NCBI RefSeq assembly: GCF_036088315.1
Contig: NZ_CP107996.1
Coordinates: 4,171,001-4,235,000 of the forward strand
Origin: Streptomyces sp. NBC_00344
Lineage (GTDB): Bacteria > Actinomycetota > Actinomycetes > Streptomycetales > Streptomycetaceae
Direction: 5' to 3'
DNA length: 64,000 nt
Below, in pieces: positions 41,754-44,584 of this stretch. Made by a program: the position numbers and the translations under genes. Within the stretch, counting starts at the first letter, position 1; every line of letters starts with the position of its first letter. The notes under the pieces were generated by a model, which had not been told where the DNA came from, searched no databases, and saw only the letters and a list, made by a program, of their open reading frames with translations.

Positions 41754-42706
41754 ACGCGTACCTCTTCGGCCAGGGCGAGCGCCTCGCGGGCCATGACCGC
41801 CGTGGCGTCCTGATCGGTCATCATCAGCGGAACGGCCCGGCAGCGGATACCCGCCTGCTCCACGCGCTCGACGGAATCCGTGTCGACGGTGTCGACGAGC
41901 CAGCCGTCCAGCAGGCCCGAGCCGTAGTGCTCGGCGACCGCGGCCGCGGTGGACTCCACCCCTACAGCCGCGAGGACCTTGTCCGCCATCCCGCGCACGG
42001 GTGCGTCCCCGACGATGGGAGAGAGCCCGACGACGGGCACACCCGCATCGGCGATCGCCTCGCGGATCCCTGGCACGGCCAGGATGGTGCCCACCGAGAC
42101 CACCGGATTGGACGGCGGGAAGAGAATGACGTCGGCGGACCCGATCGCCTCGAGGACACCCGGCGCGGGCTTCGCCTGATCGGCGCCGACCGGTACGACG
42201 GCGTGTGCCTCGACCGAGGCACGCAGACGCACCCAGTACTCCTGGAAATGGACCGCCTTGCGCTCCCCGTCCACGTCGACCGCGACATGGGTCTCGATGC
42301 GGTCGTCCGACATGGGGATGAGCCGTACGCCGGGCTTCCACCGCTCGCACAGGGCCTCGGTGACCGCGCTGAGCGGATAGCCCGCGCCCAGCATCTGGGT
42401 GCGGACGACATGCGTGGCGAAGTCACGGTCGCCGAGCCCGAACCACTCGGGTCCGACGCCGTAAGCGGCGAGTTCGTCCTTCATGGTGAAGGACTCGTCG
42501 GTACGCCCCCAGCCCTGCTCCTCGTTGATGCCACCGCCGAGGGTGTACATCACCGTGTCGAGGTCGGGACAGACCTTCAGCCCGAACAGATGGATGTCGT
42601 CACCGGTGTTGCCGATGACGGTGATGTCCGCGTCTGGCGCGGCCTGCTTGAGGCCGCGCAGGAATCGGGCACCACCGATGCCGCCGGCCAGAACCACAAT
42701 GCGCAT
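41750..42706 (-). CDS. fbiA: F420 biosynthesis transferase FbiA/CofD
   Basis: A 318-residue enzyme that transfers a phosphoenolpyruvyl/phospholactyl group from its GDP-activated form to the deazaflavin Fo, giving dehydro-F420-0. Family signatures: [25 protein letters not shown] at the N-terminus, [31 protein letters not shown], the [14 protein letters not shown] block, and [16 protein letters not shown]. Length is normal. ATG start with no strong ribosome site. Overlaps fbiB by 4 bases, so both act as one transcription unit. Confidence 0.95.
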
Positions 42707-42768
42707 GCGGACAGTCTGTCAGGCGGGGGACCGGACGAGGGGCGGTGGTCGGGGTGCCGGGGGAATTG

Positions 42769-43287
42769 TCAGGCGGTCACGACATCGCGGGCGTCCGGTG
42801 CGCAGCGCGCGCTGTGCATCGGCATCTCGGTCAGGCCCGGGAAGTAGACGTGCAGGCTGACGGCCGGCTCCAGGGCATCGTTGACGACCTCGTGGGTGTA
42901 GCCGGGGGCGAAGACCCGCTGTGTGCCCGCTTCCAGCGCGCGCGCGGCGCGCGGGGTGCGCTCGGTCAGCCGGCCTTCGAGGACGGTGAGCACACCCGAT
43001 GAGCTGCCGTGGCCGTGCAGTCCGCTGCCCTGGCCTGGGACCCAGCTGAGCAGCCAGACCTCATAGCCGGGGCCGGTGTGCAGGCGGTGGTACCAGCGGG
43101 ACACCGCGTCGTACTCGACGAGGTCCTGCCACCGGCCGCGGTCGGCGGCGATGGAGCGCGCGAGTCCGGCGAATTCGGCAACGGTGGCCGGATGCTCGGG
43201 GGCGGGCCGGAGCAGGTGCTGGACGGCGAGGATGTCGCCGCCGATCTGGATGTCGCTGTCGTTGTTCACGGTGCTGTTGCTGTTCAT
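42769..43287 (-). CDS. Cysteine dioxygenase family protein
   Basis: A 172-residue cupin that oxidises L-cysteine to cysteine sulfinate with iron and oxygen. The iron ligands are His91 and His93 in SGLHGHGSSSG and His132 in PGYTHEVVN, as in bacterial type I enzymes; WLLSWVPGQ precedes them. The ATG at 43287 has GAGGAA ten bases upstream. A cysteine-rich leader ORF ends 87 bases upstream, and its coding RNA contains GGGUUCC, complementary to the GGAACCC that overlaps this ribosome binding site. This suggests cysteine-dependent control of translation. fbiA is downstream, 62 bases on, same strand. Confidence 0.9.
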   Translation of the reverse strand: MNSNSTVNNDSDIQIGGDILAVQHLLRPAPEHPATVAEFAGLARSIAADRGRWQDLVEYDAVSRWYHRLHTGPGYEVWLLSWVPGQGSGLHGHGSSSGVLTVLEGRLTERTPRAARALEAGTQRVFAPGYTHEVVNDALEPAVSLHVYFPGLTEMPMHSARCAPDARDVVTA

Positions 43288-43294
43288 GGCGCGG

Positions 43295-43434
43295 GGGTTC
43301 CTCGGCAGTGGCAGTGCTGGGGTCTCGCAGAAGGTGCAGTCAAGGCTGCGGAAAGAGGCTGGAGCTCAGTGGCTTCAACAGCTGGAACAGCAACAGCGCG
43401 CCTGGACAGCGCTGCGGAACCCACGGACGTGGGT
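43295..43434 (-). promoter_or_regulatory. Candidate attenuator structures before cysteine dioxygenase
   Basis: On the minus-strand RNA, ACCCAC (43434-43429) pairs with GTGGGT (43424-43419) in a 6-bp hairpin with loop GUCC inside the leader ORF. The overlapping segment GGGUUCC (43422-43416) is instead complementary over seven bases to GGAACCC (43301-43295), which covers half of the cysteine dioxygenase ribosome site GAGGAA. The two pairings exclude each other, giving a possible switch driven by ribosome position on the cysteine codons. Confidence 0.5.
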
Positions 43435-43461
43435 TGCGGGGAGCACTGTGGTCGCTGGCAT
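43375..43461 (-). CDS. Leaderless cysteine-rich leader peptide (28 codons)
   Basis: A 28-codon ORF, ATG at 43461, stop TGA at 43375, too short for a normal ORF scan. It begins M-P-A-T-T-V-L-P and ends R-C-C-C-S-S-C, with four Cys among the last six residues. No ribosome binding site precedes the ATG; TTGACA (43497-43492) lies exactly 30 bases before it, the spacing expected if the transcript starts at the ATG itself. Cys-rich leaderless short ORFs upstream of sulfur genes are an established attenuation mechanism in mycobacteria. Here it precedes cysteine dioxygenase by 87 bases, so a cysteine-sensing role is inferred. Confidence 0.65.
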   Translation of the reverse strand: MPATTVLPATHVRGFRSAVQARCCCSSC

Positions 43462-43491
43462 GAAATCAAGGAGAACGGCTGATTGTTCACT

Positions 43492-43497
43492 TGTCAA
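43492..43497 (-). promoter_or_regulatory. -35 element for the leader-cysteine dioxygenase transcript
   Basis: Perfect TTGACA on the minus strand. A start 36 bases from its first base would fall on the leader ATG. The expected -10 region reads TCTCCT, a poor match, so the promoter may be weak or activated. Confidence 0.45.
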
Positions 43498-43815
43498 CTC
43501 CATAACCGATTTGGGTGCAATGTTTCACCTCATCCGGTTACTGCCCCGGGGGAAAGGTTTGTGCTGGCGGCCCCGCGGAGATGTGGCGCAACAAGTCGCG
43601 CCGTAAACGCCGCGGCTGTCTTGTGATCGGACTGTGATCCAAATCCCTTCCGCGGAGGGGACGCAACAAGATCAAGCCGGCTCGCGTCTTTCCCCGGCAA
43701 GGGGGAAGGCGCACGAATGGGCCGGTGGCATGTGTCAGATTTCTAATGATTTGAACACTTTCTGCATGGCCTTGGTTCCGCAGAGTGAATAAGGGACCCA
43801 ATAGCAGATCTCGGC

Positions 43816-43844
43816 TTGACTGGCCTGGATCACACGCTTGTAAT
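43816..43844 (+). promoter_or_regulatory. whiB promoter
   Basis: TTGACT (43816-43821) and TGTAAT (43839-43844) are separated by exactly 17 bases, each differing from consensus at one position. Transcription would start near 43851, leaving a leader of about 66 bases before the ATG. A GTGTC, the reverse of the GACAC core that WhiA binds, lies at the predicted start site (43852-43856). Confidence 0.7.
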
Positions 43845-43916
43845 TTCACTCGTGTCGTTCGGCCGAAATCGGTAGCGACAGCAACACGGGGACGCAAAGA
43901 CGGACAAGGGGCGCAC

Positions 43917-44180
43917 ATGACCGAGCTGTTCCAGCAACTGCTGGTCGAGGACGCGGATGAGGAATTCGGCTGGCAGGAGCGTGCACTCTGCGCCCAGACC
44001 GACCCCGAGTCCTTCTTCCCCGAGAAGGGCGGGTCCACCCGCGAGGCCAAGAAGGTCTGCCTGGCCTGCGAGGTCCGTTCCGAATGCCTCGAGTACGCCC
44101 TCGCCAACGACGAGCGGTTCGGCATCTGGGGCGGTCTTTCCGAGCGTGAGCGCCGGCGGCTCAAGAAGGCCGCCGTCTAG
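43917..44180 (+). CDS. whiB: Sporulation regulator WhiB
   Basis: An 87-residue Wbl-family iron-sulfur protein, the same length as S. coelicolor WhiB. The four cluster ligands are Cys25, Cys48, Cys51 and Cys57 in the pattern C-X22-C-X2-C-X5-C, and GIWGG (about 69-73) is the conserved turn before the basic C-terminal helix (RERRRLKKAAV). With WhiA it controls genes that stop aerial growth and begin sporulation septation. The ATG at 43917 is preceded by GGACAAGGGGCGCAC; the longer frame is leader sequence. A near-consensus promoter lies about 70 bases upstream and tandem hairpins follow. Confidence 0.96.
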   Translation: MTELFQQLLVEDADEEFGWQERALCAQTDPESFFPEKGGSTREAKKVCLACEVRSECLEYALANDERFGIWGGLSERERRRLKKAAV

Positions 44181-44584
44181 CTGCCCGGAGGCCGCTCCGG
44201 CGCCCCCCCGGCGGGCGCCCGACAAAGGCCGCGAGCCTCGCCGCGTCGTGGCGGGCCCGGATGCGCCCGGCGCAAGGCCGGCTCCCGCCCCTGCCCGGCG
44301 CCACATCCGACGCTGAACGCGGATCCACCGGATTCACCGGTCGGCTCCCGGCGGGGCGGGGTACCTCGCTTCTCGCTCAATCGGTACAAGTCCGTACGGA
44401 ACATCCGGTCCGCCGCCCGTCTCCACCCGACGGGCGGCGGACCGCTGCCGTAGGCAGCCGTTAGTGTGGGGCCCCGTCCGCGATGCACCGACCTCCTCAG
44501 GGGACGCGTGCGTCCACCGCATCCGCAACGCAGCCTTCCGGGGGGAACGACCCCCGGACCCCGGCCGGAGGGGCCCGTACCTCG
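44181..44584. other. 404-base interval between whiB and the giant glycosyltransferase
   Basis: Holds the whiB hairpins and probably the promoter of the next gene; TAGTGT at 44462-44467 may be its -10 element. The frame of the next gene is open back to 44483, so translation could begin there, but the composition of that stretch is low-complexity and family similarity begins at MSVHSQ. Confidence 0.5.
44199..44458 (+). terminator. Tandem hairpins after whiB
   Basis: Three inverted repeats follow the whiB stop: a 7-bp stem GGCGCCC/GGGCGCC at 44199-44219; a long 16-bp stem with a 7-base loop at 44406-44444 (left arm CGGTCCGCCGCCCGTC); and GCTGCC-GTA-GGCAGC at 44444-44458. The second is the most likely terminator. 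The stretch between 44220 and 44405 shows nothing else recognisable. Confidence 0.65.

Follow-up and report, generated by a model that had tools for sequence, protein, structure and literature searches.

We found that the cysteine dioxygenase (CDO) gene of Streptomyces sp. NBC_00344 is preceded by a short open reading frame (ORF) with a run of Cys codons at its end, and that this leader is conserved across Streptomycetaceae. We propose, at a probability of about 0.55, that the leader senses cysteine and controls CDO translation, which would be on at low Cys-tRNA through unmasking of the first CDO codons. The analysis started from a 64,000-nt stretch of this genome (the window; contig NZ_CP107996.1, positions 4,171,001 to 4,235,000), and coordinates below count from its first letter. 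An earlier note on this DNA had described a cysteine switch for CDO; its Cys-codon leader, leaderless geometry and link to CDO were borne out, whereas the switch that it proposed was not. The features concerned are the following.

42769..43287, minus strand: CDO gene, 172 aa (PF05995, E 1.8e-17; matches to PDB cysteine dioxygenases).
43273..43285, minus strand: CDO bases +3 to +15, GAACAGCAACAGC, from the G of the ATG to codon 5, predicted target of the Cys tract.
43299..43303, minus strand: GAGGA, Shine-Dalgarno-like site of CDO, from the sequence.
43310..43374, minus strand: spacer between the leader stop and the CDO ribosome site, C-rich and G-poor (28 C and 13 G in 65 nt).
43375..43461, minus strand: leader ORF, 28 codons, ending RCCCSSC, predicted to be leaderless.
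43385..43397, minus strand: Cys codon tract GCTGTTGCTGTTC, the predicted masking strand.
43407..43448, minus strand: outer stem, CAGTGC (43448-43443) with GCGCTG (43412-43407), enclosing P1 in the minimum-free-energy fold.
43418..43435, minus strand: P1 hairpin AACCCAC-GTCC-GTGGGTT (arms 43435-43429 and 43424-43418), lying within the leader ORF, 22 nt ahead of the first Cys codon.
43469..43474, minus strand: TCTCCT, a weak, non-consensus -10 element after a 17-nt spacer.
43492..43497, minus strand: TTGACA, the -35 box.
43520..43539, minus strand: box AACCGGATGAGGTGAAACAT upstream of the -35, a possible activator site, from promoter consensus by group.

The CDO product is a CDO_I-family protein, and its probable action on cysteine rests on this family membership; it presumably keeps the catalytic residues, judging by an alignment with PDB cysteine dioxygenases. 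On the minus strand the gene order is leader ORF, 87 nt, CDO and a CofD-family gene, and a divergent WhiB-family gene lies upstream of the leader. The 28-codon ORF was as the earlier note had read it, running from ATG 43461-43459 to a TGA that ends at 43375 and encoding MPATTVLPATHVRGFRSAVQARCCCSSC, and the perfect TTGACA that the note placed exactly 30 nt before this ATG was found at 43497-43492. Two longer readings were rejected. An in-frame extension would begin at ATG 43503, but an ATG stands there in 10/195 related copies and 142/195 have an in-frame stop at most 36 nt upstream of the leader ATG, so we prefer the 28-codon start. A 68-codon GTG ORF (43284-43490, minus strand), whose stop overlaps the CDO ATG, was discarded because its GTG is kept in the same place in 2/195. 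The promoter scan of 42700-43700 gave no sigma-70-type match. Conservation of box AACCGGATGAGGTGAAACAT is strong in the two main forms of Streptomyces and weaker elsewhere (distinct promoters, by group), which makes it a candidate activator site and control of the CDO promoter by an activator likely. The stretch from this box up to the -35 is partly palindromic. Five Rfam matches in 42500-44500 had E values of 0.52 to 4.1, all far below gathering scores.

The 80 best CDO loci of a scan of public genomes were all from Streptomyces. To these we added 56 Streptomyces loci, 40 low-similarity Streptomyces places (part of those listed) and 40 places from 16 other Streptomycetaceae genera, lying in 39 of the 93 genomes listed. 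To count as a leader, an ORF had to be 8-59 codons long, carry 3 or more Cys among its final 14 residues and have a TTGAC 26-33 nt upstream. A polycysteine ORF lay upstream of CDO in 212/217 Streptomycetaceae regions, a count that, like the other conservation counts here, is not independent because the species are related. The first 80 Streptomyces loci all had one, as did 15 of the 16 other genera sampled, the 16th yielding one doubtful copy. The C-terminal Cys codons before CDO, whose conservation the earlier note had named as a check, are kept across Streptomyces. The same criteria found no leader in 217 antisense regions, 2,170 shuffles or 1,724 other 420-nt windows of the same loci; when TTGAC was not required, the controls gave 6/217, 21/651 shuffles and 36/1,724, respectively. 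Every region with a polycysteine ORF also had TTGAC, and TTGACA occurred in 81/81 copies that had been chosen regardless of it and in each of the 195 distinct copies.

In the five regions that lack a leader, a polycysteine ORF of any kind was absent; one of these regions was a 75-nt fragment (L209). Two of them, from Streptomyces, kept the TTGACA region and lacked the ORF (L149 and L161), a natural loss. Another (L220) was a second CDO copy in one genome, and several other genomes held weaker second CDO matches. Outside Streptomycetaceae, CDO relatives of at most 49% identity were found in 36 genomes, and the 8 loci examined there had no such leader.

The five regions lacking the ORF (the four named and L207) were dropped, and the RNA tests did not include L206, which has a doubtful CDO start and TTGACT. 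This gave 211 rows, or 195 distinct copies after removal of identical sequences: 59 copies (65 rows) of form A, to which the window belongs, 66 (74) of form B, 34 (36) of the remaining Streptomyces and 36 (36) of other genera. Duplex cross-comparison, partition-function folding of the Shine-Dalgarno (SD) region with the leader, tract-CDO helix scores and Cys codon order used the 211 rows, and the scan of ribosome positions used 161.

TTGACA stood 30 nt before the leader ATG in 119/195 copies, 31 nt in 74/195 and 29 nt in 2/195, within an allowed range of 26-33. In agreement with the earlier note, no Shine-Dalgarno-like site preceded the leader ATG in the window or in any of the 195 distinct copies. 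Such a constant spacing between promoter and ATG, with no ribosome site, suggests that translation is leaderless. The -10 position read TCTCCT in 70 and TGTCCT in 55 copies (125/195 together), neither being a consensus -10. Leaders carried 3 to 11 Cys, 3 being the search minimum. Form A reads MPAT...SAVQARCCCSSC and form B MLAN...ARCSCCCCSSC; the two have little in common outside the Cys run, and the other genera diverge further.

Polycysteine leaderless short ORFs have been reported as attenuators in mycobacteria by Canestrari et al. in 2020. According to passages in papers that cite this work, they attenuate cysteine genes and act through ribosome speed on Cys codons. The CDO leader shares with them leaderless geometry, a short ORF, a Cys cluster near its 3' end and a cysteine-related gene downstream. 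It differs in preceding a cysteine-degrading gene and in having Cys codons that are predicted to mask the first codons of that gene. Clustered Cys near the ORF end and conservation before a cysteine-related gene, two marks of the attenuator class, were each found in the same 212 of 217 regions; the geometry of the 195 copies fits the third, a start at the transcript 5' end, with a weak -10. Neither NCBIfam NF042933 (leader_Ms5788A) nor NF042934 (cis_reg_atten) was hit by 15 CDO-leader sequences and one composite at E <= 10, and five leaders, one composite included, hit no Pfam family. The CDO leaders are therefore not members of the described families, although they would work like the mycobacterial class. 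The same genome does contain a leader of the described kind:

L252:372-479, plus strand: leader MQRYSSGLRTRGLAVLTKRRAVDLCRVAAMLCRAV before a cysA-type sulfurtransferase gene of the genome that contains the window; a relative of the mycobacterial Ms5788A leaders.

This leader has 2 Cys and scored 41.1 bits with NF042933 (cut-off 45) and 29.6 with NF042934 (cut-off 27). The folding test that we applied to CDO gave no start mask for it (18.5 free, 17.4 without the leader). The cysI and Prok-JAB loci of this genome had no TTGAC-plus-Cys leader in a strict or relaxed scan; one 10-codon ORF containing C lies inside cysI. Runs of four Cys-type codons showed no excess in the genome (67 versus 65 in the reversed control). 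In the open-licence literature searched, we found no account of the CDO leader.

Folding pointed to the Cys tract itself as the regulatory strand. In the predicted fold of the window sequence (-71 kcal/mol, z -2.37; 3/200 shuffles as stable), the tract GCUGUUGCUGUUC (43397-43385) forms 13 bp with 43285-43273, and bases +3 to +15 pair with it at a probability of 0.84. The mean probability of this pairing was 0.86 in form A, 0.85 in form B, 0.64 in the remaining Streptomyces and 0.08 in other genera. The best contiguous helix between tract and CDO had mean z values over shuffled tracts of 6.60, 4.64, 3.95 and -0.29 in these groups, and native pairs beat dissimilar partners in 94% of form A, 97% of form B, 39% of remaining and 6% of other-genera rows. 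In Streptomyces, the prediction is thus dominated by pairing of the Cys codons with the first CDO codons. When a ribosome occupied the middle Cys codon, +3 to +15 became freer in 58/59 form A, 63/66 form B and 29/34 remaining copies and less free in none, the unpaired probability rising from 0.02 to 0.47, from 0.07 to 0.44 and from 0.20 to 0.46, respectively. It did not rise in other genera (0.46 to 0.45). The start codon gained no more than 0.02 on stalling (0.62 to 0.51 in form A, 0.67 to 0.69 in form B), and the SD region, which by eye reads GAGGA or a close variant in most relatives, did not gain (0.54 to 0.52 and 0.58 to 0.52). Because stalling leaves SD and start-codon accessibility unchanged, the predicted mask covers the first CDO codons rather than the SD or AUG. 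A mask on codons 1-5 makes its strength in the cell uncertain.

We also calculated the cost of opening the CDO site from -20 to +14 in the free RNA, without the leader, and with the middle Cys codon occupied by a ribosome. In this order, it was 22.6, 11.3 and 11.4 kcal/mol in form A, 19.1, 11.8 and 12.0 in form B, 16.0, 11.2 and 12.0 in the remaining Streptomyces and 13.0, 11.4 and 11.4 in other genera; the window gave 20.9, 8.4 and 9.3. The ribosome brought relief of more than 3 kcal/mol in 59/59, 59/66, 16/34 and 10/36 copies of the four groups, and the site became harder to open by more than 1 kcal/mol in none of forms A and B, 4/34 and 3/36. Part of this relief is built into the calculation, in which a ribosome placed on one strand necessarily disrupts the helix. 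When the ribosome stood at the stop codon, the site was relieved in 29, 41, 14 and 8 cases. In the averages of forms A and B, the cost shifted by no more than roughly 2.5 kcal/mol when the ribosome was at least 13 codons before the stop. For the window, upstream ribosomes lowered it from 20.9 to 14.7-17.4 kcal/mol (a drop of about 3.5-6); the cost was 8.6-9.3 with the ribosome on the Cys codons and 10.4 with it at the stop codon (a drop of 10.5). Taken by group, the mask is a feature of Streptomyces for which the evidence of selection is moderate; the Cys-codon leader is conserved more widely.

Codon usage in the leader was unusual. Its Cys codons were TGT in 760/1,000 cases, versus 106/654 in neighbouring genes. 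The bias extends to other genera (124/181), so pairing with CDO is not its sole explanation, and it would agree with slow decoding of a rare TGT codon. Streptomyces leaders often have the order TGT-TGC-TGT or TGT-TGC-TGT-TGC-TGT, as pairing with AACAGCGACAGC would require. The local ACCCAC/GTGGGT hairpin noticed earlier (P1) is present, and its stem letters change on both sides among relatives (GACCCG/CGGGTC, GACCCGC/GCGGGTT, GATCCAC/GTGGATT and GGACTCGC/GCGAGTCC). A perfect 6-bp stem was found at P1 in 122/195 copies versus 134/975 shuffles, and the distance from its 3' end to the first Cys codon was 22-25 nt in 51/59 form A, 47/66 form B, 7/34 remaining and 13/36 other-genera copies. The 5' domain as a whole exceeded shuffles in stability by a modest margin (mean z -1.0, -1.1, -1.2 and -0.4).

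From these results we propose the following mechanism. Transcription would begin at the A of the leader ATG or at a neighbouring base, and the leader would be translated without a 5' untranslated region. The Cys codons, which read UGU UGC UGU in the window, are predicted to pair in the free RNA with the first five CDO codons, and this pairing, beginning at the G of the CDO AUG, would make it harder for a ribosome to settle. If charged Cys-tRNA runs short, a ribosome would halt on the Cys codons, with P1 sitting just behind it; the CDO codons would be freed and CDO made. With plentiful cysteine, the ribosome would pass quickly and the mask would re-form. In the leader-peptide translational attenuation of the ermC type, a halted ribosome likewise alters pairing and frees a downstream start; the CDO-leader ribosome would differ in sitting directly on the masking strand, with no drug and no rearranged second hairpin.

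As a stalled ribosome frees the first CDO codons in this model, low charged Cys-tRNA should turn CDO on. That a cysteine-degrading enzyme should be made at low cysteine is physiologically odd. One speculation is that cysteine is spent on sulfite, which frees more external cystine sulfur. SCO3035 of S. coelicolor is probably its CDO gene, judging by its whiB neighbourhood. The adjacent number, SCO3034, is whiB in the relevant passage of PMC4255298. The expression data given in PMC4991794, where a table labels SCO3035 hypothetical, report its RNA 6.5-fold up in the wild type with H2O2, together with cysN/D/C/H/I, cysA and cysM, and no gene up in the hsr mutant. In S. shaoguanensis at 96 h, two CDO genes and cysD/NC/C/H rise together, and sulfur compounds in the broth are also higher by then, according to the portion of PMC12763843 that deals with them. 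For strain SCUT-3, PMC7181669 gives two CDO genes as 50- and 8-fold up in feather medium, in which the proposed role of sulfite is to cleave the disulfides of keratin. We count the rise of CDO RNA with cysteine-biosynthesis genes in favour of the low-cysteine ON sign, although the sign itself is not proven. The S. coelicolor and S. shaoguanensis data are at the RNA level and could be explained by a shared activator, and high cysteine could explain the SCUT-3 induction, which leaves the sign unfixed.

Another possible explanation, which we think unlikely, is Rho-dependent attenuation, in which the C-rich spacer would load Rho when leader translation is uncoupled, so that control acts on transcription. 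Consistent with a possible Rho-loading region, C exceeded G in the spacer of 195/195 copies, a consensus scan of the minus strand from 42700 to 43700 found no intrinsic terminator, either there or between leader and CDO, and other genera keep the leader while the mask is absent. However, the Streptomyces mask would then need a separate explanation.

The leader peptide or its translation may also matter in some other way, with the CDO pairing a by-product of Cys codons facing Asn-Ser-Asp codons. Synonymous recoding of the leader side gave p <= 0.05 in 14/59 form A, 8/66 form B, 3/34 remaining and 1/36 other-genera copies, and for the window p was 0.21 on the leader side and 0.047 on the CDO side, which shows that the encoded amino acids supply much of the pairing. 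That the pairing is not conserved in other genera, and that stalling leaves the SD and start codon as accessible as before, would also suit a by-product. By contrast, the peptides are poorly conserved outside the Cys run, and the codon order and P1 point to a constraint at the RNA level. On balance, we regard this account as improbable too.

A third account, modelled on TnaC, has the Cys-rich nascent chain halting the ribosome at high cysteine, which would lift the mask and induce CDO. TnaC, the leader peptide of the tna operon, likewise controls an amino-acid-degrading enzyme, but it is an arrest peptide with Rho masking, whereas the CDO leader has no demonstrated arrest sequence. Any halt on the Cys codons is predicted to open the mask, the sign suits CDO, and the residues before the Cys run look loosely alike across genera by eye. 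However, the leader peptides otherwise differ strongly between groups, unlike known arrest peptides, the preference for a rare codon fits slow decoding, and CDO rises with biosynthesis genes; we consider arrest quite unlikely. If it did occur, the leader would be inducible, with sensing codons doubling as the masking strand and an enzyme that disposes of cysteine.

Equally doubtful is the switch of the earlier note, in which a stall at low cysteine frees GGGUUCC to shut the CDO ribosome site, so that CDO is on at high cysteine. Both sequences exist (GGGTTCC 43422-43416 and GGAACCC 43301-43295) and are complementary as described, and the sign suits a degradative enzyme; the feather-medium induction would agree with this switch. 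A match of at least 6 nt between the P1 and SD regions was kept in 48/59 form A, 32/66 form B, 6/34 remaining and 3/36 other-genera copies, but the complete 7-nt pair, which the note expected to be conserved, occurred in 19/195, and native runs averaged 5.30 versus 4.96 for cross pairs. In duplex folding, a comparison that is noisy in such GC-rich sequence, leader and ribosome-site segments had no advantage with their own over other-species partners (mean -24.0 versus -24.0 kcal/mol). Pairing of the SD with the leader was rare in Streptomyces folds, at probabilities of 0.003 in form A and 0.013 in form B in free RNA; with a ribosome at the first Cys codon it rose to 0.06 and 0.17. In other genera it fell from 0.25 to 0.17, which in these folds goes against the proposed sign. 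Moreover, GGGU is held in the P1 hairpin, uncovered by the stalled ribosome, the stalled state makes the CDO site cheaper to open, and CDO RNA rises with biosynthesis genes. The duplex, partition-function and match-count tests thus gave no support to GGGUUCC as the main switch, despite the matches kept in form A, and the predicted sign, on when stalled, is the opposite of the note's. In three divergent Streptomyces (L151, L158 and L166), visual inspection showed that the part of the leader just ahead of the Cys run has a match of 9-11 bases to the CDO ribosome site (CCTTCGCGCTG/CAGCGCGAAGG for L166), so other masking pairs may exist.

If unmasking of the first CDO codons by a ribosome stalled at low Cys-tRNA is the correct reading, cysteine-codon leader control would extend from mycobacteria to a degradative gene across Streptomycetaceae. 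Its design would be compact, the sensing codons being the masking strand, and it would raise the question of why a cysteine-destroying enzyme is switched on alongside cysteine-making genes.
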